Shown here piece after piece: positions 15,977-33,004 of a DNA stretch of 64,000 bases (position 1 is its first letter; each line of letters opens with the position of its first letter). A model generated the notes under the pieces. It had not been told where the DNA came from and did not search any database. It worked only from the letters and a program-made list of their open reading frames with translations. The position numbers and the translations under genes are program-made. Origin of the DNA: Rhodococcus sp. SBT000017 (GTDB lineage: Bacteria; Actinomycetota; Actinomycetes; Mycobacteriales; Mycobacteriaceae). Location of the stretch: NCBI RefSeq assembly GCF_003688915.1, contig NZ_REFU01000001.1, forward strand, positions 1,860,001 through 1,924,000, in the 5' to 3' direction.

Positions 15977-17470
15977 CTACGCCTCGACACCCCTACCGTG
16001 GTCCGCAACCATCACAGCGGCACGCTCGGCGAACATGATCGCCGTCGCATGCGGGCCCCGGCTGGGCACCACCGGAAACGCCGAGGTGTCGACGACGAAG
16101 ACACCGTCCACTCCGCGTACCCGGCAGTGTTCGTCGAGCACCGACCCCGGATCCGACTCCGGTCCCATCCGGGCGCTTCCGGACAGGTGCAGCGACGTAC
16201 CGAGTGCCGCGAGGGGGTCGTCGATAGCGGGGACTTCGACACTGCTGGCCATGGACGACGATGCGAGCAGTTCTCGCGCCAGCTCGACGCCACCTCGCAT
16301 CGCCCGCCGGTCGCTCTCCGATTCGAGATAGCGGTATCTCACGTCCGGGGCCTCGAACGGATCCGTGCTGCGCAGCGCGATGCTCCCACGTGCCGTCGAG
16401 CGCATGAGGCCGACACCGAACACGTGCGGCCCACGCGGCAGACCGGAGATCAGTCGATCGAATCTCCTCGTGTACGGCCTGATCTCCACGTCGCCCGCAT
16501 GCAGCACGGCTTCCAGCGCCGGAGATGCCGTCGAGAATTCCTTCGTCGTGACGACGGGAACAGCAACCTCGGGATGGTCACTGAAACCGTGGCCGACTCC
16601 CGGACTGTCGACAACCACCGAAATACCCAGCGCAGCAGAGCCTTCGGAGGGCCCGATGCCGGATCGAAGCAGCAACGCAGGGGTGTGTACCGCGCCGGCC
16701 GAGACGACAACGGTGTCGGACTCGACGACAGTGCGTACCCCGTCGACGATGATCTCGACCCCGATCACCCTGTTTCCCTTGAACATCAACGACGCCACCG
16801 TCGTATTGCCTTGTACCCGTACATTTTTTCGGCCGATGACCGGCAAAAGATATGCCAGAGCGGCACTTACGCGGACCCCACCGCGAATATTCGACGGGAC
16901 GGCACCCACTCCCCCCACGGCCGCGTCGGGAGCGTTCAGGTCCTCGTGGAATCGAAAACCCGCGCTCTGCGCGGCCTGCACGAACGATGCCGTCAGAGGA
17001 TGTCGGTCCTGCTCGGGGGTGCGCGAGACCGGCATCGGCCCGCGGGAACCGTGCCACCGATCGATCGCTCCGGCATCGAGATCGGTTTCGGAGCCGATGT
17101 AGAACGGCAGCACCTGATCGAACGACCACAACGACTGCGGCCAGGCGTCGAAGTCACCCGGCGTCGCCCGGACGAAGTAGCCGCCGTTCACTGCGCCGGA
17201 GCCTCCCAGCACCCGGCCTCGCGCGATCGTCCGAGAGACACCCGCTGCGAGTTCGGCCGCATAGGTTCCCACCCATTCGCTGCCGGGGCCGATGGGAAGC
17301 GTCGACGCGTCGAGCAAGACCGCCGGAACATCGGCGACGCCGGAGAACGCCGGTCCGGCTTCGAGCAACAGCACCGACCGATCGGGATTCTCGCTGAGCC
17401 GCGACGCGAGAACACATCCGCAAGAGCCACCTCCGACGACGATGACGTCGGCGAACTCGACCGGGTTCAC
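15977..17470 (-). CDS. mftG: mycofactocin-system GMC oxidoreductase MftG
   Basis: The 497-residue GMC flavoprotein has the N-terminal FAD motif DVIVVGGGSCGCVLASRLSE, RTIARGRVLGGSGAVNGGYFVRATPGDFDAW (GMC signature 1), SAGAVHTPALLLRSGIGP (signature 2) and a C-terminal HLSGSARMG...GVFVVDTSAFPVVPSRGPHATAIMFAERA with the catalytic His region. MftG is known as the mycofactocin dehydrogenase that passes electrons from mycofactocinol to the respiratory chain and regenerates the oxidised cofactor. Here it is the last gene of an mftE-mftF-mftG run, 33 bases after mftF. The identification rests on both sequence and position. Confidence 0.9.
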   Translation of the reverse strand: MNPVEFADVIVVGGGSCGCVLASRLSENPDRSVLLLEAGPAFSGVADVPAVLLDASTLPIGPGSEWVGTYAAELAAGVSRTIARGRVLGGSGAVNGGYFVRATPGDFDAWPQSLWSFDQVLPFYIGSETDLDAGAIDRWHGSRGPMPVSRTPEQDRHPLTASFVQAAQSAGFRFHEDLNAPDAAVGGVGAVPSNIRGGVRVSAALAYLLPVIGRKNVRVQGNTTVASLMFKGNRVIGVEIIVDGVRTVVESDTVVVSAGAVHTPALLLRSGIGPSEGSAALGISVVVDSPGVGHGFSDHPEVAVPVVTTKEFSTASPALEAVLHAGDVEIRPYTRRFDRLISGLPRGPHVFGVGLMRSTARGSIALRSTDPFEAPDVRYRYLESESDRRAMRGGVELARELLASSSMASSVEVPAIDDPLAALGTSLHLSGSARMGPESDPGSVLDEHCRVRGVDGVFVVDTSAFPVVPSRGPHATAIMFAERAAVMVADHGRGVEA

Positions 17471-17503: not shown

Positions 17504-19030
17504 TCAGCCGTCGAGGCGGGGCTTGAGGGCCTCGACGCTGCGAGCGGACAGTGCGCCGCGCCACAGCCCCGCTCCGTACGCGACGTCGTCGGCTCGCTTG
17601 TAGAAGGCATAACGCACAGGATCGAGGCCGCCGAGCTCACGATGCTTGTACCAATCCGAGAATGCCTCTGCCACAGCCAATCCCAACGCAATTCGACGAA
17701 TTCGACTCGACAGCAGCACGGCGAGCAGGGTGATCGGCCAATAATGTCGACACAGGGCCGACGCCAATTGCCACAACCCCGCCACGAAACCCTCCGCGGC
17801 GAGAATGGCCGCGATCCGCGTGGGCTGATCCAGACCGACGAACATCTTGCGCAGACGAACGATCGTCACGCCGAGTGTGGCGGCGGCTCCGACAAGTCCG
17901 ATCCGCGTCAGACTCGCGGCGAGCAGACACGCGACCAACGTCCACGGAGACATCGCGATCGGCGGCACCATTCCCGGATGACGTGCCGACAACGGTGTGG
18001 CACCGGTCCCGTAGAACAGCTTGCGGGAGAACCACTCGACAAAGGTGACGCGATGCTCGTGCGCGACGTGGGCGACGGGTTCGTAGCGCAGCCGCCACCC
18101 CGCTTCCTGCAATCGCCAGCACAGGTCCACGTCCTCGGCCACGTGCATCGACTCGTCGAATCCGTCGCAGTCCATCGCCACCGACCGGCGCATCAACATC
18201 GCAGCGCTGGGGACGTACGACACCGAGCTGCCTGCCCGTACTGCCGCTTCCTTGCGGCCCAGGTCGAGCGACGAGCGGGCGTGTTCGTACCTGGCCAGCG
18301 CGCTGCCTTCGGGCTCGAGCGCGACGATGCGGGGGGCCACCAGGGCGACCGCCGGATCCGAGAAGTGACCGAGCATCACCTCCAGCCACCCCTTGCGTGG
18401 GACGACGTCCGAATCCAGGAATGCTACGAAATCTGTTGTGGCACATCGCAAGCCAGTGTTCCGCGCCGCAGCAGGTCCGCGCGAGCGCTCGTGCCGCAGC
18501 ACCGTCACGCTGCCCACACTCCACGAGATCCGCGGTACTGCGACCGGGACGTCCGACCCGTCGTCGACGATGATGACGTGCAGACCGTGGAGTGCCGCGA
18601 TCAAGCGCTCCAACCCCGCCTCGTTGTTCTTGAGCGGTACGACGACGGTGACATCGCACGGCGACGGGATCGACATCGGGCGCGGGTTCCCGACTCCCGA
18701 GTCGAGCAATTTGCGAGCAACGAGAGCGGACTGGGAGTCGGTCACTTCGATGAATCCGTCGCCGATCATCGCCGCAGCGGTCGGCGCGAGCTTGAGCATG
18801 CGGGTCGGTGAACCACCGATCAGGACGCGCCCTTCGGAGAATGTGCGTACGCGTGGATCGACTCGCACCCCGAAGCCATCAGGCAACCGACCTTCACCCA
18901 TCAGGAGATCGTAAGCTGACAAGCCGCCGGAGTGTCGGCCACCCGGGAAATAGGACGGAACATACCTGCGCCCCGTTTCACGGGACTCGTCGTCAGGTCC
19001 CCCAGCAGGCGTTTCAGAGTGTTCGGTCAT
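17504..19030 (-). CDS. mftF: mycofactocin glycosyltransferase MftF
   Basis: The 508-residue family-2 glycosyltransferase has an N-terminal ~110-residue mft-specific part ([32 protein letters not shown]), then the GT-A core [11 protein letters not shown]... [35 protein letters not shown] (DxD-type metal motif) and [20 protein letters not shown], then two hydrophobic segments near the C terminus that suggest membrane association. MftF adds a short beta-1,4-glucose chain to the premycofactocin core. The ATG at 19030 overlaps the mftE stop by 4 bases. Confidence 0.93.
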
Positions 19031-19713
19031 GCGATCACACCGTGCTCGGAGGGACTCCATCTGCGTACCGCATCGTCGGCGCGGGCGCGCAAGGCCTCGA
19101 ACAGAGCCCTGCCCTCCTCCGAATCGGCCCCGGTGGGATCGCCGAGCACGCCGTTGGCAGTGATCGGTGCCAATCCACCGTTCCGAAGTGCCGGCAGCAG
19201 GGCGGCGATGTCGGTCACATTTCCCACCTGCGCCTTGGTCATGTCCACCACCTCGGGCGAAAGGTGCAGTAGCAACGACGTTTCGGTCCGTCCGGCGTGA
19301 GCATCTGCTCCGGGTATCGCGCACGGGAACCACACGACATCGCGTCCCTCGTACCGAAGCAGCAGCACTGCGGACCGCACCGTGGGCCCGTTGCCGCCGT
19401 GCCCGTTGACGAACACCACCCGCTCGGCCCACCGGCAGGCGGAGCGTCCGTACTCCACCAGGAGCGTTTCGAGCGCAGCGGCACCGATCGAGACGGTGCC
19501 GGGAAAGCCCTCGTGCTCGCCACTGGCACCGTACGCGATCGCGGGGGCCACGACTGCGTCCGGAATGGTTCGCGCCACGGCGTCGGCGATACGGGTGTCG
19601 GTGTCGAGGGGAAGGTGCGGTCCGTGCTGCTCTATCGAACCGACCGGCACGACGAGGGTCCTCGACCCGTCGACGTCCGGCCAGTACTGCACACCGAGGG
19701 GGTCCGTGGCCAT
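19027..19713 (-). CDS. mftE: mycofactocin peptidase MftE (creatininase family)
   Basis: The 228-residue creatininase-fold metallohydrolase carries [18 protein letters not shown] (metal Glu/His/Asp), [30 protein letters not shown] and [18 protein letters not shown]. MftE cleaves the Val-Tyr dipeptide-derived core from the modified MftA peptide. Here it is the first gene of the mftE-F-G block and is divergent from a GntR-type regulator gene 49 bases away, not directly downstream of mftD as in mycobacteria. The ATG at 19713 is chosen because the protein begins right at the conserved [17 protein letters not shown] strand. Confidence 0.93.
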
Positions 19714-19762
19714 GGATGCAGATGCTATCGGATGGAACGAAGCCGTCACGCCGCCGAAACAC

Positions 19763-20500
19763 ATGGGCGTTAATCTTCGATTCGTGCCACCCCGTCGTCG
19801 GTCCATATTGCTCTCGCAATTGTCGATATCGGCACCCGGCGGCCCACAGCCTTCGATTCTGCGCGAATTGCGTCGGGTAATTCTCGCCGGCGACGCTCCA
19901 CCGAATACCCCTATTCCACTCAACGAAGTGGCGGAACTGTTCGGGGTGAGCCGAATACCGGTGCGCGAGTCGCTCAAGACGCTGATCGGCGAGGGATTGG
20001 TCGATCATCGGCCGAATCTGGGCTACACGGTCGCCCAATTGACAGCGGCCGAACTACGCGAAATGTACATCGTCCGAGAGGTTCTGGAGACGGCAGCGCT
20101 TCCGATCGCCGTCGAACTCGCCACCGATGCCGACCGCGAGCACATCATCGAGATCAATCGGCAACTCGAAGCGTCACTGGCTCGGGACGACTCGCGGGAG
20201 TATCACCGACTCTCACGTGAATTCCACCTGTCCCTGACGCGACCGTCTCGGATGCACCGGTTGCTGCACATGCTCGAATCTGCCTGGAACATAACCGAAC
20301 CCGTGCAACCCATGGTGCATGTCGCCGGGTCCGACAGAGCGTCGCTGCACAGCGACCATGCCGACATGCTCACGGCATTCCTGGACGGTGATTCCGCCGG
20401 ACTGCTCAGCGCAGCACAGCATCACCACACGCGTCTCAATTCGGTCATTTCGACACTGTCGAACGACCGCGGATTGTTTGCCGATCCGTCGCCGGAATAG
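19763..20500 (+). CDS. GntR-family regulator with FCD domain
   Basis: The 245-residue protein has an N-terminal winged helix ([56 protein letters not shown]) and a helical FCD ligand-binding domain ([19 protein letters not shown]... [26 protein letters not shown]... [12 protein letters not shown]). FCD regulators usually bind small organic acids and repress catabolic genes. A GTG at 19784 is an alternative start. It precedes the NCS1 permease and racemase genes and is divergent from mftE, with only 49 bases between starts, so it could control either side. Confidence 0.88.
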
Positions 20501-20506
20501 CCGGGG

Positions 20507-20596
20507 GAACGACCCGAAAGATACGGGAGTGGAGCCTGCAGGAACGACCCGAAAGATACGGGAGTGGAGCCTGCAGCAATGACCCGAAAGATATAT
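20507..20596. repeat. 2.5 tandem copies of a 35-base repeat
   Basis: Two identical 35-base units (20507-20541 and 20542-20576), each containing GACCCGAAAGATACGGGAG and ending CCTGCAG, are followed by a partial third (20577-20596, sharing GACCCGAAAGATA). Each unit holds a CCCG-N7-CGGG dyad, and the junction forms GCAGG...CCTGC. The array lies between the GntR regulator gene and the permease gene, 100-190 bases before the permease start. It is a likely regulator-binding array. Confidence 0.65.
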
Positions 20597-20696
20597 CGCT
20601 CTCGTCACGAGTGCGCAACACTTCACCGCTAACTTTTCCTCATTCACTCGTTCACCTCCTTCGTTCGTCTCATACGCCATGCCGTCAGGAGCATCG

Positions 20697-22249
20697 ATGA
20701 CAGATACAGCGCACGGTCCCGCTCGAGCGGGAGATCTCGTGGAAGCCGCGGGCCACCCCGTCGGTGGTGGACTGATCAAGGACAGTTACGACCCTCGACT
20801 GACCAACGAGGACCTCGCTCCGCTGAAGAAGCAGACGTGGACCTCGTACAACCTGTTCGCCTTCTGGATGTCCGACGTGCACTCGGCGGCGGTTACGTGA
20901 CCGCGGGCAGCCTGTTCGCGCTCGGGTTGGCCAGTTGGCAGGTGCTGATCGCGTTGCTCGTCGGCATCACGATCGTCTACTTCTTCTGCAACCTCGTCGC
21001 CAAGCCGAGCCAGGTGTCGGGTGTTCCGTATCCGGTCATCTGCCGCAGTGTCTTCGGCGTCCTCGGTGCCAATATTCCGGCCATCATCCGCGGTTTGATC
21101 GCGGTGGCCTGGTACGGCATTCAGACGTTCTTGGCTTCGGCTGCCCTCGACATCGTGCTGATCAAATTGTTCCCGTCGCTCGGTCAGTACGCCGTCACCG
21201 CCGACTACGGTTTCGCCGGATTGTCGCTGCTGGGCTGGGCGAGCTTCCTGTTCCTCTGGGTCGTCCAGGCTGCGGTGTTCTGGCGCGGGATGGAATCGAT
21301 CCGCAAGTTCATCGACTTCTGCGGCCCGGCCGTCTACGTCGTCATGTTCATGCTGTGTGGCTACCTGATCTGGAAAGCCGGATGGGGCGCAATCGATCTC
21401 ACCCTCGGCGAGGTCGAGTACACCGGCTTCAGCGCGGTACCCGTCATGCTGGGAGCCATTGCGCTCGTCGTCTCGTACTTCTCCGGTCCTATGCTCAACT
21501 TCGGTGACTTCTCTCGCTACGGAAAGTCGTACGCTGCCGTCAAGAAGGGCAACTTCCTCGGTCTGCCGATCAACTTCCTGGTGTTCTCCATCCTCGTCGT
21601 CGTCACGGCATCACTGACTCTTCCGGTGTTCGGCGAGCTGATCACCGACCCCGTCGAGACGGTCGCCCGCATCGACAGCACCTTCGCCATCGTCCTCGGT
21701 GCCCTCACCTTCGCCATCGCGACGGTCGGCATCAACATCGTCGCCAACTTCATCGCTCCGGCATTCGACTTCTCGAACGTCAGCCCGCAACGCATCAGCT
21801 GGCGTGCCGGTGGCATGATCGCCGCAGTCGGTTCGGTACTGATCACCCCGTGGAACCTGTACAACAACCCTGACGTCATCCACCTGACGCTCGAGACACT
21901 GGGCGCGTTCATCGGGCCTCTGTTCGGAATCTTGATCGCCGACTACTACCTGATCCGCAAGCAGCATGTGGCGGTCGACGAACTCTTCTCGATGTCCAAG
22001 ACCGGCCTGTACTGGTACTCGAAGGGCTACAACCCGGCGGCGGTGTATGCGACCGTCGCGGGCGCAGCGGTGGCGATGTTCACCGTGCTGTTCAACGGAG
22101 CCGTCGACGGGCTGGAGATCGCCGGTATGTCCACCGCATCCAAGTACAGCTGGTTCATCGGCTGCGGCATCGGATTCGTCTCGTACTACTTCCTCGCGAC
22201 GCGAACCAAGCTGGCCGTCACCAACTTCGACGTTCCAGCGAAGGCATAG
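20697..22249 (+). pseudogene. NCS1-family (hydantoin/allantoin/cytosine) permease, frameshifted
   Basis: The first 68 codons read MTDTAHGP... ending LKKQTWTSYNLFAFWMSDVHS and then run into AAVT-stop at 20898-20900. One base earlier in phase, the sequence continues GGYVTAGSLFALGLASWQVLIALLVGITIVY and stays open to 22249 with the whole NCS1 core (GVPYPVICRSVFG, NIPAIIRGLIAVAWYGIQTF, MESIRKFIDFCGPAVYVVMF). Intact homologues read DVHS-x-GGYVTAG, so one base is missing in the GGCGGCGG run near 20885. About twelve membrane segments are present. It would import a hydantoin-, allantoin- or nucleobase-type substrate. An AGGAG ribosome-binding site precedes the ATG at 20697. It may be a real inactivation or a read error; downstream translation could also reinitiate. 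Confidence 0.75.
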
Positions 22250-22258
22250 GATTTCTTC

Positions 22259-23008
22259 GTGCTCATCAAGGTCATCAATCCGAACACCACCAGTTCGATG
22301 ACCGCAACGATCGGTGACTGTGCCCGGGCCGTGGTCGGCCCGGGCACCGTCGTCGACGCGGTCAGCCCTGCGATGGGGCCCGTTTCGATCGAGAGCCACG
22401 TCGACGAAGCACTCAGCGTCCCAGGCATTCTCGCCGAGATTGCCCGTGGCGAGGCCGCGGGGGTCGACGGTTACGTCATCGCCTGCTTCGGAGATCCCGG
22501 CATCGACGCAGCCCGCGAGCTGGCGACCGGGCCGGTCATCGGCATCGCCGAGGCGGCCATGCACGCCGCGAGCTTCCTGGGTCGAGGGTTCAGCGTCGTC
22601 ACCACACTCGGCCGCACCATCGGTCGTGCCCAGGATCTGGCGAACCACTACGGCTTCGGACGCCACTGCCTCGGCATCCATGCGTGCGAGCTGCCGGTCC
22701 TCGATCTCGAGACCGACCCCGATGCCCGCAAGATCGTCACCGAGGCATGTCGCGTCGCCGTCGAGACGGACGGCAGCGATGCCGTCGTACTCGGTTGCGC
22801 GGGCATGGCGGATCTGTGCCAACACATTTCGGCCGAGATCGGAGTACCGGTGGTCGACGGTGTGGCCGCGGGAACCCTGTTCGTGCAGTCCCTGGTCTCG
22901 CTGGGACTGGCGACCGGAAAGCGGGGCGAATTCGCTACGCCACCGGCCAAGCTCTACACGGGGATGCTCGAAGGTTTCAGCAGGCCTCCCGCTGACCCGA
23001 TCCGGTAA
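22259..23008 (+). CDS. Asp/Glu/hydantoin racemase family protein
   Basis: The 249-residue protein matches the hydantoin/allantoin racemase branch of the Asp/Glu racemase superfamily: IKVINPNTTSSMTATIG at the N terminus, the first catalytic Cys in GYVIACFGDPGIDAARE, and the second in DAVVLGCAGMADL. It would interconvert enantiomers of a 5-substituted hydantoin or allantoin. It starts with GTG 9 bases after the permease gene, so the two form an operon. No hydantoinase or carbamoylase gene is nearby. Confidence 0.88.
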   Translation: MLIKVINPNTTSSMTATIGDCARAVVGPGTVVDAVSPAMGPVSIESHVDEALSVPGILAEIARGEAAGVDGYVIACFGDPGIDAARELATGPVIGIAEAAMHAASFLGRGFSVVTTLGRTIGRAQDLANHYGFGRHCLGIHACELPVLDLETDPDARKIVTEACRVAVETDGSDAVVLGCAGMADLCQHISAEIGVPVVDGVAAGTLFVQSLVSLGLATGKRGEFATPPAKLYTGMLEGFSRPPADPIR

Positions 23009-23021
23009 GCGCTTCCACCCA

Positions 23022-26000
23022 TCAGTTCTCGCACAACTGCCGGTAAGGAACGCCGGGTAGGTACTGGGCCCATTCGGCTTCCGTCACCACCGACCCCCCG
23101 GATTCGCACAGATGGGTACGAACCTCGTCGGGGTCGGTCCGCCAGATGCGGACGTCGCGGGCCGTGCCACCGCCGAACAGCACTCGCCCGTCCGCGGCGA
23201 ACACCACTGTGTAGACACGCTGGCCGTACGCGGTGAGGGCGGCGTACTGCTCGGGCGCGGCACGATCACCGACATTCCACAGCCAGGCCGTCGAACCGCC
23301 GTCGCCTGCGGCCAATTGCATACCGGACCGATCGAAGGCGAGCGACCAGATCGGATTGGACGGCCCCACCAGGCGAGCCAAATGCTGCGGTGCGGCAGAA
23401 TTTGCCATGTCCCACAGTCGAATCGAGCGATCCGCGCTACCCGCGGCGAGAGTTCGCCCATCCGCCGAGATGGCCAAGGCCTGGACGGCGCTTCCGAAAC
23501 CGCCGAGCGTGGTCGTTCGACGCGGATCGGTGGGGTCGCGGATATCCCACAACTCGACCACGCCACCGACACTGGCGACGGCAAGGACCGAACCGTTGGA
23601 AGACACCGCCATTGCCGAGGGATAGTTTCCCGCCACCAGGGTCGACAACGCACGCGGGGCCGCAGGATCCGCCAGCGACCACAACGACACGTCGCTCGAG
23701 TTCTGGCCCGACACGAGGAGCATACGGCCGGAGCGATCGAACGCCACCACCGCAGTCAGACTGCTCGTTGCCGTCCGGATGGCGCCGAGCGCTGTCGGTT
23801 GGTCGAGATCGGTTGTGTCCCATAGCTGAAATCCACCGGTAGAGGTGCCCGCCGCAGCACGGGTGCCGTCGGCGGTCAAGGCCACGGCACCTGTCTGCTC
23901 CAGACCGTCACTCATCACCAACGGCGGCGACGCCACCGGATGCTCCACGTCCGCGACGTCCCACAGGACCGTGCCCGCGGCATTGCGACCGGCACCGACC
24001 AGCAGTCGGGTGCCCGACGCGTCGGTGGCGTTCTGAAACACGGTGTCACCGGCATCGGGGAGGACCGGTCCGGGAATCGGCCAAATCCGGGTGATTCCAT
24101 CACCGCTCGCAGTCACGATCGACGACCGATCCGGCGAGAACGCGAGTGAACCGACTGCGATCGGCCCGGGAAGCGTCAGCTGCAGCGTTCCCGACGCCGC
24201 ATTCCACACCTTCGTGGAGTTGTCCGAACTCACCGCAGCGATCAATGCCCCGTCCCGACTGAACGCCACATCGTTGACGTAGCTGGTGAACCCCGTCAGC
24301 GGCGGCAATGAAGTAAGCCCGCCGGTGGCATCGACGGCCCACCGCAGAACCTCACGACCGGTGGTACCCGCGATCAACGTCGTACCGTCGGGCGAAAATG
24401 CCAACTGCCGCCAGGTGTAGGTCGATCCGTCGGAAGGAATGTCGATGAGTGGAACGGCCTGTGCTACCGAGATGCCGGCGAGCCGCGTCGCGTCCCACAA
24501 TCGCATCGCGCGGCCTGCACCGGCCGTCACCAGGAACCGACCATCCGGGCTGAACTCCGTTGCCGAGGGCGAACCGGGTTGGGAGAGTTCACCGATCGTG
24601 CGCGGCAGGGTCGGCTCTGCAACGTCGAGGAGGGGCAAGCCCTCGCCCTCGGTGCCGACCAGCAGGAACCGGCCGTCGGGCGAGAAGGACAGGCTCTGCA
24701 CGCCGGTGACGTCCATGTCCGACAACATCACCGGTGTCGCCGGATCCGACACGTCCCACAGCTCGACGCCGAAATAGCCGCCCACTGCGAGAAATCGACC
24801 GCGCGGATCGAACGTCAGAACGAGTGAATCCCGCGAGACGATCTCACCGAGCCGGGTGTGGCCATCGGCGAGAGACCAGATTCGGACGCGCCCGTCGGAA
24901 CCGCCTGTCGCCACGATGCTTCCGAGCGGATCGACCGCGGTCACGGACTCCCCCTCGACGCCGAGCAGCCGCACCGGCGCATGGATCGCCGACGAATCGA
25001 GCAGCGCCGATCGCGCCTCCGACGTTCGGTCCACCTCGTACGATGCCAACGCGAGGTACGCGGCCAGACCTGGGTCCTGCGTTCGCAATTGCTTTGCAAC
25101 ACCGGCAATCTGACGGGAGACGGCCTCCGCCTCTGCGTGCTCGGCGTCGTCGCGCCTCGTGTTCGCGTCCGATCTGGCGACGAATGCCGTCACCGCCAGT
25201 GTCACTGCCAGTACGGTCAGAAGTGCGAGTGCGGTAACGAGCGTTTCGAGGGTTCGTCGCCGACGTCGGTCGTTTCGGTTCTGTTCCTCGACTCGATGCG
25301 CGCTTGCTTCGAGGTAGAGCTTCTCGACGGAATTGAGATCTCGCCGCCGCACCGGACCGACGGCTTCCTGTACCGACGTCAGCCTCGACTCCGGCAACAG
25401 CGAGCCTTCATCGCGGTCGTTGTTCTCCCACAGTTCGGCCGCCTGAGTGAGCCGACGGTGTTCGACCAGCCACTGACGATCGTCGTCGAGCCACTCGTGC
25501 AGCCGCTTCCATGCCGTGAGCAACGCCTCGTGTGTCATTTGGACCGTCTCTTCTTCTACGGTCAGCAGTCTGCGCGCGGCAAAGCGTTCGATGACGACAT
25601 CGACGTCGGTGACCACGTCTTCGTCTTCGTCTCCGTTGAACAACTCGACACGATCGACTCGGCGACGAGTGACCACATCGTCGTCGAGATTGACCAGACG
25701 CATGAAGATGCGGCGAGCTTCGCGCTGCTGTTCGGAAGTCAAGGCGGAGAACACTTCCTCGGCACTCTGGCCCACCGCTCCGCCGATGCCGCCAGTTGCG
25801 AGATAGTCCGCGACGGTCAGCGTTCTCCCGCTGGAGACCTGCCACGTGCTCAGCAGTGCGTGAGAGAGCAGGGGCAGGGCACCGGAGTCGTGGGCGAACT
25901 GCGATCCACGCGGACCCAACTCACCGACCAGAACCAGCACGAGGGCATCGTCGACGGCCACACCCGCCTTCGCAGCAGGCGAGATGATGACTTCCCGCAA

Positions 26001-26798
26001 CTGCGATTCGGTGAGCCGGCCGACGACAATCGGGTTGTCGGACAGCCCGGACAGCAGAGCGTCCTCCGATACGGCGTTCTGATAGAAGTCGGCCCGTAGG
26101 CCGACAACGAGGACCGATCCGGAATTGGGCAGTGCCGTCGCTGCACCGAGAAAGCTCTCGCGTTCCTGCACAGTAGCCAGGGTCCACAACTCTTCGGCCT
26201 GATCCAGAACAACGACGGAACCCGGCTCGAGCGACGCTGTTCGCGCCGGGAAGGCGCGAATATCGCCGATGCCCGCACAGATGTCCGAACCGGCGAACCT
26301 CGGTGCCAGGCCGGCCCGCAGCAGCGAGGACTTACCCGAACCCGACGCACCGACGACGAAAACGATGCCTCCACCGGAGTCGAGGGCTTCGCGGACGCGC
26401 GCGCTCAGGCGCTCGATCACATCCTCGCGTCCGAAGAACCATTCGGCGTCGGCGAACTCGAACGCTTCCAGTCCCTTGTAGGGAGGGTCGCCCTTCACCG
26501 GGTCGACGGTGCGCCTGCCCGAAACGGACCGCACTCTGGACACCGCATCCCACCACCGCGCACGCTCGTCCTCGTCGTCCACTCCGCAGGCGATGAGTAC
26601 GGCCGAGAACATTTGGGCGCTGGCTTTGGTCGGAACATGGTGACCGGAGAACCAACCACTGATCGTGCCGTGCAGGCCACCGGAGCGCTGGACGACATCG
26701 CGGACCGTGGCACCTGCCTGGATCCTGATCGCACGCAGCCCCGCCGCGAATTCGGAGCGGTCCGAAATCGACGAGGGATCCGGGCGATCGGAGGTCAT
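23022..26798 (-). CDS. HTH-STAND NTPase-WD40 repeat protein
   Basis: The 1258-residue signalling-type protein has three parts. Residues ~15-75 form an XRE-like helix-turn-helix (GLRAIRIQAGATVRDVVQRSGGLHGTISGWFSG). Residues ~105-480 form an nSTAND1 P-loop ATPase: PYKGLEAFEFADAEWFFGRED, Walker A GASGSGKSS at ~150-158, and a SVVVLDQAEEL Walker B-like strand. A hydrophobic segment near residue 515-540 (LVTALALLTVLAVTLAVTAF) precedes a coiled stretch and roughly a dozen WD40 blades (repeated FSPDGRFL / SADGRTLAAGSADRSIRLWD motifs). Such proteins are common in actinobacteria; the WD40 propeller is thought to sense a ligand and gate the ATPase. It is encoded alone, convergent with the racemase gene 13 bases away. 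Its function is unknown. Confidence 0.88.
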   Translation of the reverse strand: MTSDRPDPSSISDRSEFAAGLRAIRIQAGATVRDVVQRSGGLHGTISGWFSGHHVPTKASAQMFSAVLIACGVDDEDERARWWDAVSRVRSVSGRRTVDPVKGDPPYKGLEAFEFADAEWFFGREDVIERLSARVREALDSGGGIVFVVGASGSGKSSLLRAGLAPRFAGSDICAGIGDIRAFPARTASLEPGSVVVLDQAEELWTLATVQERESFLGAATALPNSGSVLVVGLRADFYQNAVSEDALLSGLSDNPIVVGRLTESQLREVIISPAAKAGVAVDDALVLVLVGELGPRGSQFAHDSGALPLLSHALLSTWQVSSGRTLTVADYLATGGIGGAVGQSAEEVFSALTSEQQREARRIFMRLVNLDDDVVTRRRVDRVELFNGDEDEDVVTDVDVVIERFAARRLLTVEEETVQMTHEALLTAWKRLHEWLDDDRQWLVEHRRLTQAAELWENNDRDEGSLLPESRLTSVQEAVGPVRRRDLNSVEKLYLEASAHRVEEQNRNDRRRRRTLETLVTALALLTVLAVTLAVTAFVARSDANTRRDDAEHAEAEAVSRQIAGVAKQLRTQDPGLAAYLALASYEVDRTSEARSALLDSSAIHAPVRLLGVEGESVTAVDPLGSIVATGGSDGRVRIWSLADGHTRLGEIVSRDSLVLTFDPRGRFLAVGGYFGVELWDVSDPATPVMLSDMDVTGVQSLSFSPDGRFLLVGTEGEGLPLLDVAEPTLPRTIGELSQPGSPSATEFSPDGRFLVTAGAGRAMRLWDATRLAGISVAQAVPLIDIPSDGSTYTWRQLAFSPDGTTLIAGTTGREVLRWAVDATGGLTSLPPLTGFTSYVNDVAFSRDGALIAAVSSDNSTKVWNAASGTLQLTLPGPIAVGSLAFSPDRSSIVTASGDGITRIWPIPGPVLPDAGDTVFQNATDASGTRLLVGAGRNAAGTVLWDVADVEHPVASPPLVMSDGLEQTGAVALTADGTRAAAGTSTGGFQLWDTTDLDQPTALGAIRTATSSLTAVVAFDRSGRMLLVSGQNSSDVSLWSLADPAAPRALSTLVAGNYPSAMAVSSNGSVLAVASVGGVVELWDIRDPTDPRRTTTLGGFGSAVQALAISADGRTLAAGSADRSIRLWDMANSAAPQHLARLVGPSNPIWSLAFDRSGMQLAAGDGGSTAWLWNVGDRAAPEQYAALTAYGQRVYTVVFAADGRVLFGGGTARDVRIWRTDPDEVRTHLCESGGSVVTEAEWAQYLPGVPYRQLCEN

Positions 26799-26933
26799 GG
26801 GCGAAAACTATAGAGCCGAAAAATCATGTGCAGATGCACTGAACGTCCCGCTGAGCAGCAAGAACGGCAAGTTGATTCGTTTGAATGACGCTCGGATCGA
26901 GCGCGAAACCATCCGTATTGACCTTGTATGGAC

Positions 26934-26961
26934 TTCCTCGCAGAGCTGGAACCGCGAGGAA
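26934..26961. promoter_or_regulatory. inverted repeat TTCCTCGC-N12-GCGAGGAA upstream of LuxR-type gene
   Basis: Perfect 8-base arms (26934-26941 and 26954-26961) lie just after a TTGACC box and about 50 bases before the LuxR-type GTG start. A second smaller dyad, CGCTCG-GAT-CGAGCG, lies at 26889-26903. These may be autoregulatory sites in the 213-base gap between the divergent STAND and LuxR-type genes. Confidence 0.35.
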
Positions 26962-27011
26962 ATTGCCCCGACGATGAGCGTGTCGGTGAAATCTCCAGGG
27001 GGTAACTTCTC

Positions 27012-27338
27012 GTGCGCGAACACACGTTGGCAACCGCGGTACATCATCGGTTCCGAAGGCCGGTACAGCCGGCATCCGGTGCGTTCCCGACACCTCCCGA
27101 TCCTCATCGCCGCAAGCCTGCGCTGAGCGCCCGTGAGGTCGAGGTCATGATCGCCTGGTTCGCCTCCGACTCGAAAACGGTCGCGGCACGGTCCGTCTAC
27201 ATTTCGGTGGGGACGATCAACACGCACATCACCCGTGTCCGACAGAAGTACGCGGCAGTGGGTCGCAACGCGCCGACGAAGGCCGCTCTGTTCGCACGCG
27301 CCCTACAGGACGGTCACACTCAGCTGTCCGACTGGTGA
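27012..27338 (+). CDS. short LuxR-type HTH protein
   Basis: The 108-residue protein consists of a basic N-terminal ~35 residues and a LuxR/GerE helix-turn-helix (LSAREVEVMIAWFASDSKTVAARSVYISVGTINTHITRVRQKYAAVGRNAPTKAALFARAL). It has no receiver or ligand-binding domain. Free-standing proteins of this size and motif are frequent in Rhodococcus, so it is probably complete rather than a fragment. The GTG start has an AGGGGG ribosome-binding site 9 bases upstream. It converges with the mftD2 gene, with stops 21 bases apart. Confidence 0.65.
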   Translation: MREHTLATAVHHRFRRPVQPASGAFPTPPDPHRRKPALSAREVEVMIAWFASDSKTVAARSVYISVGTINTHITRVRQKYAAVGRNAPTKAALFARALQDGHTQLSDW

Positions 27339-27359: not shown

Positions 27360-28583
27360 TCAGCTCCTCGGTTCCGTATCCCGGAATCCGATCGGCGGCG
27401 GGTATCCCAGCCCGGGGAGCTGATTCGCTCGGCTGAAGTCGGGTGGTACGACGACATCGGACGGTGACAGTTCGTGGACCGACGCGCGGCCGAGTCCGAG
27501 TACCGCGGAGTCCAGGCCACCGCGCAGAATGTCGAGCACGTTCTCCACTCCGGCCTGACCGTTCGCGGCGAGACCCCACAGATACGCCCGCCCGATCAGG
27601 ACGGCCCGCGCACCGAGAGCGAGTGCTTTCGCGACATCACTGCCCCGCCGGATACCGCCGTCGAGGGTGACCTCCACCTGATCCTCCACCGCTTCGGCGA
27701 TCGACGGCAACACCCGAATCGACGCCGGGGAACCGTCGAGGTTGTTGCCCCCGTGATTGGACACCGAGATCGCCGTGACACCGGCATCGACTGCCCGGAG
27801 CCCGTCGTCGACCCGCGAAACACCTTTGAGCATGAACGGTCCATCCCACTGTGCGCGTAGCCAGGCGATGTCCTCCCACGACGGCAGCGGGGTGGACATC
27901 CACTCCCGATACGCGGCGAAGAACGTCGGCGCTGATTTTCCGGGCTCGGCGAGATTGGGTGCCGTCAGATCCGGGAACGTGCCTGACCGCGCCCACTGCG
28001 CCAGCCACCCCGGACGGGCCAACACTTCGGGTGCCAGCCGCAGCATCGCCCGCGCGTCGAGGCGTTCCGGTATCACCGGACTCCCCCAATCGCGCCCCTC
28101 CGAGAACGACCAATCCATCGTCAATATCAGCCCGACCGCGCCCGCCGCACGTGCACGATCGAGCATGTTCGCCAACAACTCCCGCGAACCCACCCAATGC
28201 AGCTGAAAGAACGTCTGCGGATTCGCCGCGACGACCTCCTCGATGGGCTTGCTCGCGAACAACGACAAACCCATCGGAATCCCCCGTGCCGCTGCCGCTC
28301 TCGCGACGGCGACCTCACCATCGGGATGTACGGCCTGCACACCCGTCGGGGAGATCATCACCGGAAACGACAGCGACTGCTCCATCAGCGTTGTCGACAG
28401 ATTGCGCGCGTCCGACAAACCTGCCACGTGCGGGGCGAATCCGAGTTCACCGAACGCAGCGGTGTTGTCCGAGGCGGTGATTCCCTGTTCTGATCCCGCG
28501 ACCAACGCCGAATACACGGACTTAGGAAGCCGCTTCTTCGCGCGCCGCTGCGCTTCGGCGACAGTCTCGAACCAGTCGGTCAC
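27360..28583 (-). CDS. second MftD-like FMN oxidoreductase (mftD paralogue)
   Basis: The 407-residue FMN-dependent alpha-hydroxy-acid-dehydrogenase-type protein is closely similar to MftD along its whole length (NPQTFFQLHWVGSRE, TMDWSFSEGRDWGSP, SVSNHGGNNLDGSP, LDGGIRRGSDVAKALALGARAV). It keeps the catalytic His and the FMN-binding Arg/Gly segments. At residue 129 it has His where MftD has Tyr131; in this superfamily (glycolate oxidase FQLYV) that Tyr contacts the substrate. It also carries a C-terminal extension of ~18 residues rich in Pro and Gly. The GTG at 28583 overlaps the mftD stop by 4 bases, so it is co-translated with mftD. It may catalyse a second oxidation of the precursor or act on another substrate; this is inference. 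Confidence 0.85.
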   Translation of the reverse strand: MTDWFETVAEAQRRAKKRLPKSVYSALVAGSEQGITASDNTAAFGELGFAPHVAGLSDARNLSTTLMEQSLSFPVMISPTGVQAVHPDGEVAVARAAAARGIPMGLSLFASKPIEEVVAANPQTFFQLHWVGSRELLANMLDRARAAGAVGLILTMDWSFSEGRDWGSPVIPERLDARAMLRLAPEVLARPGWLAQWARSGTFPDLTAPNLAEPGKSAPTFFAAYREWMSTPLPSWEDIAWLRAQWDGPFMLKGVSRVDDGLRAVDAGVTAISVSNHGGNNLDGSPASIRVLPSIAEAVEDQVEVTLDGGIRRGSDVAKALALGARAVLIGRAYLWGLAANGQAGVENVLDILRGGLDSAVLGLGRASVHELSPSDVVVPPDFSRANQLPGLGYPPPIGFRDTEPRS

Positions 28584-29758
28584 ACACCCAGCCTGCGGTC
28601 GAACCCGGCCGGCATCACCACATCCGACGGTGACAGGTCGTGCACCGAGGTGTGTCCGAGTCCGAGGACGGCCGAATCGACTCCGCCGCGCAGGATGTCG
28701 AGTACGTTCTCCACACCGGCCTGGCCACCGGCCGACAGACCCCACAGGTACGCCCGCCCGATCAACACCGCACGCGCACCGAGTGCGAGTGCTTTCACCA
28801 CGTCGCTGCCGCGCCGGATTCCGCCGTCGAGGGTGATCTCGATCTGATCACCGACGGCCTCCGCGATCGCGGGTAGCGCCCGGATCGGTGCCGGTGTGCC
28901 GTCGAGATTGTTGCCACCGTGATTGGACACCGAGATCGCCGTCACTCCTGCGTCGACGGCCTTCTTGGCGTCATCGACCCGCATGACACCCTTGAGCATG
29001 AACGGCCCGCCCCACTGCTCCCGCAGCCACGCCACGTCCTCCCAGGTCGGCAACGGAGTACCCATCCACTCGCCGTACGCTCCGAAGAACGTCGGCGCGG
29101 GACCGCCGGTCGGTGGCGTGAGGTTCGGGGTAGTCAGGTCGGGGATCTTGCCGGTCTTGGCGAACTCCCACAACCACTTCGGGCGGGTGATGCCCTCCGG
29201 TGCGAATTGCACCATTGCCTTGAGATCCATCTTCTCCGGGATCGACGGCGAACCCCAGTCGCGGCCATTGGAGAACGACCAGTCCAACGTCATGATCAAC
29301 CCGACCGCACCTGCTGCGCGGGCCCGCTCCATCCGCTGCAGCAGGATCTCGCGCGAGCCCACCCAGTACATTTGGAAGAACGTCTGCGGATTCGCCGCAG
29401 CAACCTCCTCGACGGACTTGCTCGCGAACGACGACAGCCCGATCGGAATACCCCGCGCCGCAGCAGCTCTCGCGACAGCGACCTCACCGTCGGGGTGGAC
29501 CGCCTGCACACCCGTCGGGGAGATCATGACCGGAAACGACAGCGGCTGCCCCATCACCGTCGTCGACAGATCCCGCTTGTCAGACAATCCTGCCACGTGC
29601 GGGGCGAAGCCGAGTTCGCCGAACGCGGCCATGTTGTCGTCGATCGTCAACCCACGTTCGGACCCGGCTACCAGCGCGGCATACACGGATTTCGGTAGAC
29701 GTTTCTTCGCCCGCCGCTGCGCTTCGGCAACGGTCTCGAACCACGCACTCTTGGCCAT
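28580..29758 (-). CDS. mftD: pre-mycofactocin synthase MftD
   Basis: The 392-residue FMN-dependent enzyme oxidatively deaminates the AHDP intermediate to pre-mycofactocin. Seen: SVYAALVAGSERGLTIDDN, FPVMISPTGVQAVHPDGEVAVARAAAARGIP, NPQTFFQMYWVGSRE with Tyr131 at the active-site position, SVSNHGGNNLDG with the catalytic His, and LDGGIRRGSDVVKALALGARAVLIGRAYLWGL for FMN binding. Its ATG overlaps the mftC stop by one base (TAATG). Of the two tandem copies, this one is adjacent to mftC and has the canonical Tyr, so it is called the true MftD. Confidence 0.93.
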   Translation of the reverse strand: MAKSAWFETVAEAQRRAKKRLPKSVYAALVAGSERGLTIDDNMAAFGELGFAPHVAGLSDKRDLSTTVMGQPLSFPVMISPTGVQAVHPDGEVAVARAAAARGIPIGLSSFASKSVEEVAAANPQTFFQMYWVGSREILLQRMERARAAGAVGLIMTLDWSFSNGRDWGSPSIPEKMDLKAMVQFAPEGITRPKWLWEFAKTGKIPDLTTPNLTPPTGGPAPTFFGAYGEWMGTPLPTWEDVAWLREQWGGPFMLKGVMRVDDAKKAVDAGVTAISVSNHGGNNLDGTPAPIRALPAIAEAVGDQIEITLDGGIRRGSDVVKALALGARAVLIGRAYLWGLSAGGQAGVENVLDILRGGVDSAVLGLGHTSVHDLSPSDVVMPAGFDRRLGV

Positions 29759-30993
29759 TACTGTGCTTCCTGTTCCGTTCCTGCGAGCGGGTTCTCGTCG
29801 CAGATCTTCGCCGGCGGACGCATCATCAACGTGAGCGGCACCGACTTTCGAGGGGTCTTGCGCTGGCCGGTACGGGAATGATCGCCACTGGACTTGGGGA
29901 TCTCGCCCGCCGCTGCCAATGCCATTTCGCCGTTACCGATGACGCATTCGGGATCCGGGCCATCCATGGGGAGACCGGTGAAGAATTTCGCTGCCATGCA
30001 GCCACCGCGGCACGAATCGAAGTGGGCACATTTGGTGCAGGCACCCGAGGTCTGCGGGGAGCGCAACTCCTGGAACAACTCCGAGGTCTGCCAGACGGAT
30101 TGGAACCCTCCCATACCGTCCTTCGCGTCACGGACTATGTTGCCGGCGAGGAAGTTCTCGTGAATGGCGAACGGGCAGGCATACACGTCGCCGATGGGAT
30201 CGATGAGACACACCACCCGTCCCGCGCCACAGAGGTTGAGCCCGGGCAGAGCGTCACCGAACGCAGACAGGTGGAAGAACGAATCGCCCGTCAACACACC
30301 CTCACCGTTGGCGACGAGCCAGTTGTAGAGCTCACGCTGCTGCCCGGCCGTCGGGTGCAGATCGTCCCAGACATCCGCACCGCGGCCCGACGGCCGCAAC
30401 CGGGTGATTCGCAGTGTCGCAGCGTATTTGTCGGCCAACGCCTTGAAGTCGTCGAGCTGGCTCACGTTGTGTCGGGTGACGACGACGGAGATCTTCGCGT
30501 CCCGGAATCCGGCTTCTTTCAGATTCTCCAGGGCACGGCACGCCATGTCGAACGAACCTGGTCCGCGGACCGCATCGTTGACCTCCGCGGTCGCGCCATC
30601 GATGGAGATCTGCACATCGACGTAGTCCGAGGCCGCCAACCGCGCCGCCACCTTCTTGTCGATCTTGACCCCGTTGGTGGAGAACTTCACCCCCACCTGA
30701 TGCGCAGTCGCGTAGTCGACGAGCTCCCAGAAATCCGACCGCACCGTCGGCTCACCGCCACCGATATTGACGTAGAACACCTGCATCTTCTGCAACTCGT
30801 CGATGATCGACTTGCACTGCTCGGTGCTCAGTTCACGCGGATCACGACGACCCGACGAGGACAGGCAATGCACGCACGACAAATTGCAGGCGTACGTCAA
30901 TTCCCACGTCAGACAGATGGGTGCGTCGAGACCGAGCTCGAACTGATCGACGAGTTTTCCTACCGGAGCGGGTCTTTCGAGAGTGGAAGTCAT
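29758..30993 (-). CDS. mftC: mycofactocin radical SAM maturase MftC
   Basis: The 411-residue radical SAM/SPASM protein has CNLSCVHC (Cys36, Cys40, Cys43) binding the SAM cluster, GGGEPTVR for SAM, and a C-terminal SPASM domain with CGAGRVVCLIDPIGDVYACPF and CTKCAHFDSCRGGC binding auxiliary clusters. It decarboxylates the C-terminal Tyr of MftA and forms the Val-Tyr cross-link. It is encoded 43 bases after mftB and overlaps mftD by one base. The C-terminal ~60 residues after the SPASM domain form a proline/lysine-rich tail. Confidence 0.97.
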   Translation of the reverse strand: MTSTLERPAPVGKLVDQFELGLDAPICLTWELTYACNLSCVHCLSSSGRRDPRELSTEQCKSIIDELQKMQVFYVNIGGGEPTVRSDFWELVDYATAHQVGVKFSTNGVKIDKKVAARLAASDYVDVQISIDGATAEVNDAVRGPGSFDMACRALENLKEAGFRDAKISVVVTRHNVSQLDDFKALADKYAATLRITRLRPSGRGADVWDDLHPTAGQQRELYNWLVANGEGVLTGDSFFHLSAFGDALPGLNLCGAGRVVCLIDPIGDVYACPFAIHENFLAGNIVRDAKDGMGGFQSVWQTSELFQELRSPQTSGACTKCAHFDSCRGGCMAAKFFTGLPMDGPDPECVIGNGEMALAAAGEIPKSSGDHSRTGQRKTPRKSVPLTLMMRPPAKICDENPLAGTEQEAQ

Positions 30994-31036: not shown

Positions 31037-31321
31037 TTAGCGGGGCGTGATCATCTTCGAGTCGGCCAACGTCGCGAGTGCCTTCACATACGGAGCCGAT
31101 CCGGACTCGGTGATCCCTGCGGCCGCGATCGCGGTGCGCATATCGGGATGATCGGGAAGAGACTCGATGATCGCCACGATCGTGCGGTTCTTCAGGAAGG
31201 AGAGCTTGCGAGTTCCGAAGTGGTAGAGCAGCGCCCCGAACGACTCGGGACGCAGCGCCACCTGCGGATGCAATGCCCACGGCACATCCACATCGAGTGC
31301 GCCCTGCACTGCAACAGTCAT
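31037..31321 (-). CDS. mftB: mycofactocin precursor-binding chaperone MftB
   Basis: The 94-residue PqqD-like RiPP recognition element begins MTVAQGALD-like (MTVAVQGALDVDVPWALHPQVALRPESFGALLYHFGTRKLSFL) and contains the PqqD-type LYHFGTRKLSFLKNRTIVAIIESL helix-strand region. It binds the MftA leader and presents it to MftC. The ATG lies two bases after the mftA stop, so the peptide and its chaperone are made together. Confidence 0.94.
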   Translation of the reverse strand: MTVAVQGALDVDVPWALHPQVALRPESFGALLYHFGTRKLSFLKNRTIVAIIESLPDHPDMRTAIAAAGITESGSAPYVKALATLADSKMITPR

Positions 31322-31323
31322 GA

Positions 31324-31437
31324 TCAGTACACGCCGCACATGCCGTCGATCGACACTTCCTCGACCAACGACTCTTCGACCAGATCGGATTCGACGACGG
31401 CGGTGCCTACCACAGGGTTCTCGTTGTTCTTCGACAT
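31324..31437 (-). CDS. mftA: mycofactocin precursor peptide MftA
   Basis: This 37-residue peptide starts MSKNNENPVVGTAVVESDL and ends in IDGMCGVY, the diagnostic mycofactocin core whose final Val-Tyr is crosslinked, decarboxylated and excised to become the redox cofactor. The acidic EESLVEE stretch before the core is the leader bound by MftB. A strong GGAGG ribosome-binding site lies about 6 bases upstream, as expected for the most abundant product of the operon. Confidence 0.97.
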   Translation of the reverse strand: MSKNNENPVVGTAVVESDLVEESLVEEVSIDGMCGVY

Positions 31438-31471
31438 CTGAAACCTCCAAAAGATGTTGGGGACCACAATC

Positions 31472-31495
31472 GTGATCGACAGTGGCTTGGATCAC
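31472..31495. promoter_or_regulatory. candidate MftR operator GTGATC-N12-GATCAC
   Basis: Perfect 6-base arms (31472-31477 and 31490-31495) lie in the 106-base gap between the divergent mftA and mftR genes. MftR is a TetR-type repressor, and divergent spacing plus a dyad is the usual setting. The arms are short, so chance cannot be excluded. Confidence 0.35.
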
Positions 31496-31543
31496 CACCA
31501 TAATGGCACTGGGTGCAGAAAAACCAGTAGATCGAAGGGAAAT

Positions 31544-32149
31544 ATGGCCAGGAGCGAGAAACCGTCCACTCGGGTAGGTCGGCGCCCGTCCACGACACGG
31601 GGCGAACTGAGCGATCTCGGGATCGAACTGTTCGCCTCCCGAGGTTTCGAGGAGACCAGCATCGACGACATAGCCGACGCGGCAGGCATCGCTCGGCGCA
31701 CGTTCTTCCGTTACTTCCCGTCCAAGAATGCGGTTCCTTGGGGTGACTTCGACGCTCAACTCGCAGCGCTGAGGGCACATCTGAACGGCCTACCCGCGGA
31801 CATAGAACTCGCCGATGGACTACGTTCGGCCTTGTTGCAGTTCAATACTTTTCCCCAAGAAGAAACCGCGGTTCACCGACAACGGATGTCGTTGATACTG
31901 AGCAATCCTGCACTGCAGAGCTATTCGATGGTCATGTACGAGGGTTGGCGAGCCGTCATCGCCGAATACGTTGCCGCACGAACCGCTTCCGATCCGACAG
32001 ACCACTTTCCGCGAACTGTTGGCTGGATGGTCCTCGGTGTGGCAATCTCGGCATACGAGCAGTGGCTGACCGATGACCGATCGAGTCTGGTCGAGCTACT
32101 CACTGCCGGAATCGCACCGTTGCAGTCCGGCTTGACCCCACCGCCTTAG
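31544..32149 (+). CDS. mftR: mycofactocin-system TetR regulator MftR
   Basis: The 201-residue TetR-family repressor has an N-terminal helix-turn-helix (LGIELFASRGFEETSIDDIADAAGIARRTFFRYFPSKNAVPWGDFDAQL) with the PWGDF sequence seen in MftR proteins, and an all-helical ligand-binding domain. In mycobacteria MftR represses the mft operon and is released by long-chain acyl-CoA. It is divergent from mftA, with 106 bases between starts, and is followed at 27 bases by a methyltransferase gene. Confidence 0.9.
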   Translation: MARSEKPSTRVGRRPSTTRGELSDLGIELFASRGFEETSIDDIADAAGIARRTFFRYFPSKNAVPWGDFDAQLAALRAHLNGLPADIELADGLRSALLQFNTFPQEETAVHRQRMSLILSNPALQSYSMVMYEGWRAVIAEYVAARTASDPTDHFPRTVGWMVLGVAISAYEQWLTDDRSSLVELLTAGIAPLQSGLTPPP

Positions 32150-32176: not shown

Positions 32177-33004
32177 ATGACCGAACTGGATGCGCTCGCA
32201 CCGAGTCCCGACGACGTGTGGGGTCACGAGAACGTCGTGGTCCGTCATATACCCGGACTCGAGTTGGACGCAGCCCGAACAGGATCGACCGTGCAGGTGT
32301 GCCATGGCCTGACGTCGGCCGAGATCGGTGAGCGCCTGGTTCCGATCGTGACCGAACAGGCACGTCATGTGGGTCTGTCGCAGCGGGAATTCGAATTGGT
32401 GTTGGTCGGGATCGTCCGCACCACCGTCGCCGATCCGGTCGACGCCTGGGCCACCTACTACCGCAATTCGCTGGACGAACTACTCTCCGGCACCGCCGAT
32501 TTCGCGCCCGTCCATGAACGCGCGGAGAGCCTGATCGTCGGATCGGTGCTCGACCTGGGGTCGTGTTTCGGCTTCTTTCCGCTACGACTGGCGAAGAAGG
32601 GTCACTCGGTGACTGCGACCGACCTCTCCGCCGGCACCATGCGTCTGCTCGCCACCGTTGCCCCGCATCTCGGGATCACGCTCGACACTGTCGTGTGTGA
32701 TGCTTCCGATGTTCCAGTCGCAGACAACAGTGTCGATACCGTGACCGCACTGCATCTCCTCGAGCACGTCGACGCCGAAACAGGCACGCGCATAATGAAA
32801 GAAGCGCTACGGATCGCGCGCACCCGTGTCGTCGTTGCTGTGCCCTTCGAGACCGAGACCACCGCCTGCCACGGACACGTCCGCACGTTCGACGCGCAGA
32901 CATTGGTGGCATTGGGTCGGTCGACGGGTTCGAAAATCGAGACCTCGGAGCACCACGGCGGGTGGCTCGTGATCGACAAGACCTGGGCACACCAGTTCAC
33001 CTGA
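32177..33004 (+). CDS. mftM: SAM-dependent methyltransferase, probable mycofactocin glycan methyltransferase MftM
   Basis: The 275-residue class I methyltransferase has an ~115-residue helical N-terminal part, then the Rossmann motif I LDLGSCFGFFPLRLAKKGH, acidic TATDLS, motif post-I DASDVPVADNSVDTVTALHLLEHVD and a C-terminal beta region. It is encoded 27 bases after mftR, apparently as an operon. In mycobacteria a methyltransferase (MftM) methylates the second glucose of the mycofactocin oligosaccharide. Position and general architecture support that role, but substrate specificity cannot be read from sequence, so the symbol is provisional. Confidence 0.6.
   Translation: MTELDALAPSPDDVWGHENVVVRHIPGLELDAARTGSTVQVCHGLTSAEIGERLVPIVTEQARHVGLSQREFELVLVGIVRTTVADPVDAWATYYRNSLDELLSGTADFAPVHERAESLIVGSVLDLGSCFGFFPLRLAKKGHSVTATDLSAGTMRLLATVAPHLGITLDTVVCDASDVPVADNSVDTVTALHLLEHVDAETGTRIMKEALRIARTRVVVAVPFETETTACHGHVRTFDAQTLVALGRSTGSKIETSEHHGGWLVIDKTWAHQFT

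Follow-up and report, generated by a model that had tools for sequence, protein, structure and literature searches.

The mycofactocin cluster of Rhodococcus sp. SBT000017 contains two tandem mftD genes, and the product of the second, MftD2, carries His in place of an otherwise invariant active-site Tyr. Within and next to its active site, MftD2 has two substitutions that recur in every sequence compared, which suggests a job different from that of MftD1. With chances slightly better than even, we read MftD2 as a catalytically competent, FMN-dependent MftD that goes back to a single tandem duplication in Rhodococcoides, had its pocket retuned and likely acts on another substrate, or at another stage, than MftD1. 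MftD forms the redox centre of mycofactocin. A natural paralogue with changes at pocket positions that are otherwise invariant offers a ready test of which residues control α-amino versus α-hydroxy lactam oxidation, and it may bring to light a mycofactocin species or a recycling step beyond mycobacteria. Two sequence groups that are probably functionally different share one database name, 'pre-mycofactocin synthase MftD' (as given to P0013 and P0022).

Gene pair and mycofactocin cluster

The window is a stretch of 64,000 nucleotides (contig NZ_REFU01000001.1, positions 1,860,001 to 1,924,000), in which we have identified a complete mycofactocin cluster around mftD1 and mftD2, with mftE, mftF and mftG set apart from mftD2 by an insertion. 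The genes, with the evidence for each, are as follows.

15977-17470, minus strand: mftG, mycofactocinol dehydrogenase (TIGR03970, 581.1 bits at 16007-17452)
17504-18871, minus strand: mftF, glycosyltransferase, inferred start (TIGR03965, 600.9 bits at 17513-18868)
19027-19713, minus strand: mftE, creatininase-family peptidase, inferred start (TIGR03964, 325.9 bits at 19039-19695)
27360-28583, minus strand: mftD2, MftD paralogue, 407 aa, GTG start (TIGR03966, 681.5 bits, and translation)
28580-29758, minus strand: mftD1, pre-mycofactocin synthase, 392 aa, Tyr131/Ser110 (TIGR03966, 721.2 bits, and translation)
29758-30993, minus strand: mftC, radical SAM maturase (TIGR03962, 642.1 bits)
31037-31321, minus strand: mftB, chaperone, inferred start (TIGR03967, 109.5 bits)
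31324-31437, minus strand: mftA, precursor peptide with C-terminal IDGMCGVY, inferred start (TIGR03969, 47.8 bits)
31454-32149, plus strand: mftR, TetR regulator, divergent, uncertain start (TIGR03968, 282.6 bits)
32177-33004, plus strand: mftM, oligosaccharide methyltransferase, divergent (NF041255, 351.9 bits)

Both MftDs exceed the TIGR03966 cut-off of 470.85 bits. The mftD1 stop codon TGA occupies 28580-28582 and the mftD2 GTG begins at 28583, giving the four-base overlap (GTGA) that a sequence-only reading of the window had described; mftC and mftD1 have one base in common. The same reading called the two proteins near-identical, which overstates an identity of 78%, and was right about their motifs and numbering (QTFFQMYW with Tyr131 in MftD1, QTFFQLHW with His129 in MftD2) and about SNHGGNNLDG being kept in both. 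His129 and Leu108 of MftD2 are His131 and Leu110 in MftD1 numbering. The PF01070 score of MftD2 is 356.2 bits; all other PF01070 matches in the genome, two strong and two weak (below cut-off), lie elsewhere.

The close arrangement of the two genes recurs. From the mftD1 stop to a conserved MftD2 Trp codon there are 5-48 nt in all 25 pairs measured, the four-base overlap being present in only 8 of them; two pairs (G034 and G036) have no ATG, GTG or TTG within 60 nt before this Trp codon. Translation of mftD1 and mftD2 may be coupled. An Rfam scan gave no match, and a promoter/terminator scan gave two promoter-like sites against 1.0 expected and no terminator-like sites.

Between mftD2 and mftE sit genes for a GntR regulator, an NCS1-type permease and an Asp/Glu/hydantoin racemase (19382-23008, plus strand). 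Of 24 further loci compared, 13 have a match to the permease; among these 13 are two without MftD2 (L150 and L152) and two, L158 and L161, in which an orphan mftF adjoins it. Directly downstream of mftD2 is a gene for a 1258-aa nSTAND NTPase with WD40 repeats (23022-26798, minus strand); among these 24 loci, only L143 and L153 have a match to it. A LuxR-type HTH frame (27012-27338, plus strand; GerE, 25.4 bits) is convergent with mftD2 and ends just past its 3' end, and the only match of a 139-aa frame at 26808-27227 is a 99-aa protein without stated source, listed like the window's own proteins.

Active site of the two MftDs

In phmmer alignments to human HAO1, Tyr131 of MftD1 and His129 of MftD2 fall on Tyr132, the conserved His of MftD on His260, the Lys on Lys236 and Asn283/Asn280 on Arg263; residue numbers were counted from the printed alignments and are consistent with those in PMC9114433, which together with PMC4908395 is the source for residue roles. 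This bears out the earlier proposal that Tyr131 occupies the substrate-contacting position; the refuting outcome named beforehand, an alignment showing that Tyr131 is not this residue, did not arise. The equivalent Tyr of lactate oxidase touches the C2 keto group and belongs to a Tyr/Tyr/Arg triad (PMC4908395), and in p-hydroxymandelate oxidase (Hmo) the α-OH is held by Tyr128 and His252 (PMC6677016). Neither MftD possesses this PF01070 triad, the three positions being Ala/Tyr/Asn in MftD1 and Ala/His/Asn in MftD2. Ala and Asn occupy the first and third positions in all 248 MftD rows (64 MftD2 and 184 other, repeats included), which fits a lactam substrate without a carboxylate. By alignment, MftD2 has lost the last triad member, the Tyr, yet keeps the base His.

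The remaining catalytic positions are unchanged. Those matching HAO1 Ser108, Gln130, Asp160, Lys236 and His260 are identical in all 55 distinct MftD2 and all 163 other distinct MftDs, and His280, Lys256 and Asp159 (MftD1 numbering) are kept in 55/55 MftD2. At position 26 one MftD2 has His and every other row Tyr. Because the loop that follows Asp159 takes a different course in each of the two HAO1 alignments, the counterpart of HAO1 Arg167 and the placement of Glu162 are ambiguous.

An AlphaFold model of MftD2, of moderate quality (41 sequences, pLDDT 75.7, some loops below 50), shows a barrel strand ending in His129, with Leu108 immediately following the strand before. The best solved Foldseek matches of the model are glycolate oxidases/HAO1 (1gox, 6gmb and 5zbm; E about 1e-27, TM 0.63-0.67), with a large overall rmsd (9.7-10.6 for the top four). 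Together with the PF01070 score, the matches to 5zbm and 1gox, in spite of an rmsd of 9.7, assign to MftD2 the TIM-barrel FMN fold of PF01070 oxidases, shared with glycolate oxidase/HAO1. HAO1 has Tyr26, Trp110, Tyr132 and Arg263 where MftD2 has Ala, Phe, His and Asn. No chain named MftD was among the PDB sequence matches listed.

Two fixed substitutions in MftD2

After removal of repeats, 55 distinct MftD2 sequences (26 from genomes and 29 from the protein database) were compared with 163 other distinct MftDs. His131 and Leu110 are present in 55/55, whereas the other MftDs have Tyr131 without exception and Ser110 in 159 cases (the rest being two Asn, one Cys and one Leu), a pattern that goes beyond chance. 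MftD2 rows were chosen by the motif [FL]QxHW, so that His131 is partly a matter of selection; Leu110 is independent of the choice. Pairwise identity among MftD2 falls to a minimum of 76%, and 159 of 381 columns are invariant while 222 vary. At 45 columns the MftD2 majority differs from the majority shared by MftD1 and the outgroup; columns 110, 120, 131 and 164 among these are invariant in MftD2, and near-invariance in the outgroup is found only at 110 (0.96) and 131 (1.0). The change at 164, N164E, places a Glu (Glu162 in MftD2) in the loop after Asp159 in 55/55 sequences.

The association also appears in the best 120 of 7998 database matches, taken unlabelled: the only combinations at 110/131 are Leu/His, Ser/Tyr and one Leu/Tyr, and none has His131 without Leu110. 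A quick tree does not group this Leu/Tyr protein, the database MftD P0120, with the MftD2 clade; Leu110 can therefore occur alone, as an independent S110L change. Conservation of the altered residue across MftD2 argues for the altered function that the sequence-only reading had proposed, and the position of mftD2 close behind mftD1 in 25/25 pairs agrees with this part of the proposal.

Distribution and evolution

Rhodococcoides is a branch of soil and plant bacteria. MftD was found at E up to 1e-100 in 35 of its 37 genomes. A survey of genomes for the His residue, suggested at the outset, detected the FFQxHW DNA pattern in 25/37 Rhodococcoides genomes and in 0/364 genomes from the rest of the family, 31 genera being covered altogether; the pattern misses LFQxHW copies, as read by two further MftD2 of G023 and G017, genomes already among the 25. 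A looser pattern, applied to 201 family genomes (186 outside the genus), gave two out-of-genus matches, both short unrelated frames. At the level of the phylum a pattern matched 46/396 genomes, mostly in LYQxHWP frames, which we take to be aldo-keto reductases; its F-F/L-F matches outside the genome studied here were two short unrelated frames. The MftD sequences at the locus of Rhodococcoides fascians NBRC 12155 (L037) are identical to those at the G003 locus.

The MftD family has been described as single-copy per genome (PMC3023750), and the tandem pair is an exception to this rule. No report of tandem MftDs or of a Tyr-to-His MftD was found in searches of the open-access PMC literature (further related literature: PMC8406134, PMC5550956, PMC10153336, PMC6778850 and PMC7314388). 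When 394 genomes from across the class were sampled, with four candidates scored per genome, 98 matched MftD with an E of 1e-150 or lower and six did so twice; among these six, the copies are adjacent only in the two Rhodococcoides genomes. All eight MftDs of the four two-copy genomes outside the genus (one identical pair) have Tyr131, as do twelve of the most divergent single-copy MftDs, making 20/20 (two identical).

In a maximum-likelihood tree of 76 rows, from which the partial rows of G009 and G017, G002, repeats and 53 of 70 outgroup rows were left out, the 26 MftD2 rows form one clade (support 100/100) with no Tyr row inside; MftD2 is no local mutant. Its sister group consists of 29 MftD1 rows from the main Rhodococcoides clade (support 99/87 for the join and 87/90 for the MftD1 side), and four basal Rhodococcoides rows represent a more distant MftD. 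Five genomes (G019, G020, G028, G029 and G032) have an MftD1 nested in the main clade and no FFQxHW match, an absence best read as one loss; mftD2 is therefore dispensable. In five loci from four single-copy genomes, a search for mftD2 remnants recovered mftD1 itself and, apart from it, nothing with an E below 0.35.

Nei-Gojobori counts, as distinct from a branch-site test, were made on 24 genomes (276 pairs) and gave a median dN/dS of 0.033 for MftD1 and of 0.112 for MftD2, with a maximum of 0.177 for MftD2. The MftD2 median is 3.4 times that of MftD1 and its pN is higher in 276/276 pairs, pointing to weaker constraint on MftD2. With catalytic residues unchanged and a median dN/dS of about 0.11, MftD2 looks like a maintained enzyme and not a decaying copy. 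A decaying pseudogene was rejected on the open frames of the 26 genome copies and a dN/dS of at most 0.177 in 24 genomes.

Place in the mycofactocin pathway

MftD deaminates AHDP oxidatively to PMFT, and an mftD mutant of M. smegmatis builds up AHDP-n (PMC7491314), so that glycosylation can come before the MftD step. In the same species, mycofactocinol is reoxidised by MftG, with low MftG-independent oxidation also reported (PMC11778925). MftG scores over the cut-off in 35/37 Rhodococcoides genomes, and each of the 25 that have MftD2 is among them; G013 and G016, which do not have it, are also without MftD over the cut-off. Every MftA found in the loci, with or without MftD2, ends IDGMCGVY, an ending type that the search sought, and the loci compared hold no second altered pathway gene pointing at the substrate of MftD2. 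The part of the sequence-only reading that foresaw a further step of oxidation or an altered mycofactocin fares less well. In this genome the core of MftA has not changed, and MftE, MftF and MftG are all encoded. On these observations, MftD2 fits best as a second oxidase that would act on a mycofactocin lactam and have a different preference at the α-heteroatom. A changed MftA core as the cause of the second MftD is unsupported, the genome having one TIGR03969 match (31324-31437), with the IDGMCGVY end.

MftD2 shares with MftD (TIGR03966; M. tuberculosis Rv0694) the family model, the operon position after mftC, the catalytic residues and the lack of the superfamily's carboxylate-binding Tyr/Arg, and mftA, B, C, E and F all lie in the same mycofactocin cluster. 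It is unlike MftD in being a second tandem copy and in the fixed changes of Tyr131 to His and Ser110 to Leu; Tyr131, a feature seen here and outside the published definition of MftD, is His in 55/55.

A change at the α-OH-contacting Tyr with the base His retained is also known from Hmo Y128F (PDB 6a0v and others), in which a two-electron oxidase becomes a four-electron one, with a k_cat of 4.5 per s to the four-electron product (PMC6677016). Hmo R163A, H252F and R255A lose activity, whereas Y128F keeps it with a changed product (PMC6677016). Judging by its described role and by family conservation, Hmo Tyr128 probably stands at the position of MftD Tyr131. Y128F is an engineered Tyr-to-Phe change in an enzyme for α-hydroxy acids, whereas that of MftD2 is natural, to His, in a putative lactam enzyme without the carboxylate Arg. 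The precedent shows that replacing this Tyr need not cost turnover and can alter the outcome, and, through R163L, that the scaffold is able to form an α-ketoamide (PMC6677016); it says nothing on His in MftD.

Possible roles of MftD2

The activity, substrate and product of MftD2 that we infer from these comparisons are the following. After a single tandem duplication within Rhodococcoides, the substrate pocket would have been retuned. A lactam of the mycofactocin pathway would bind over FMN, as in MftD1, with the conserved His277 (HAO1 His260) acting as base and hydride passing to FMN N5; the flavin would then be reoxidised by O2 or another acceptor. The imidazole of His129 would replace the Tyr131 phenol as contact to the α-heteroatom, and Leu108, perhaps with Glu162, would reshape adjacent loops. 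MftD2 would most likely differ from MftD1 in substrate or stage, candidates being glycosylated or glycyl AHDP, mycofactocinol, or further oxidation of PMFT. We propose only tentatively, and consider rather unlikely, that MftD2, because His replaces its last triad Tyr, performs a reaction that MftD1 cannot, taking a mycofactocin lactam through a further or different oxidation (of mycofactocinol, four-electron or oxygenating) and so providing Rhodococcoides with a mycofactocin species or recycling route not known elsewhere.

That MftD2 is a redundant or dosage copy making PMFT from AHDP, perhaps with another affinity or pH optimum, loosely kept and sometimes lost, seems to us rather unlikely. 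It would agree with the raised pN and dN/dS, with the absence of mftD2 from five genomes of the MftD1 clade and with the kept catalytic residues, but leaves unexplained why His131 and Leu110 are fixed while 222 of 381 columns vary; moreover, the second copies in four genomes outside the genus lack the change (Tyr131 in 8/8 sequences). Oxidases related to MftD are oligomeric, and this, the closely spaced mftD2 directly downstream in 25/25 pairs and the highly constrained MftD1 would suit a low-activity or non-catalytic partner that modulates or stabilises MftD1 in a hetero-oligomer. We hold such a partner to be improbable: a non-catalytic subunit need not keep catalytic residues, yet they are kept in 55/55, and the five clade genomes with MftD1 alone indicate that MftD1 needs no partner there.

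It is very improbable that MftD2 took over mycofactocinol reoxidation. Mycofactocinol is an α-hydroxy lactam, the substrate class closest to the family's α-hydroxy acids; Hmo R163L oxidises mandelamide, turning an α-hydroxy amide into an α-keto amide (PMC6677016), and the low MftG-independent oxidation reported in M. smegmatis (PMC11778925) is a further point in favour. MftG is nevertheless over the cut-off in every genome with MftD2, which is therefore no replacement for it, and we rejected this role; a supplementary one is possible.

Further mycofactocin loci in Rhodococcoides

In G013 and G016, the two genomes without MftD or MftG over the cut-off, mftF adjoins GntR/permease genes (L158 and L161) and was apparently left behind after loss of the pathway. 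G017 carries two mft sets, on broken contigs. G023 has a second mftR-A-B-C-D1-D2 module (L142, G023:C1:4323000-4342000); the 19 kb covered there contain neither mftE nor mftF or mftG. The module has its own MftD1-MftD2 pair, in which MftD2 reads LFQLHW.
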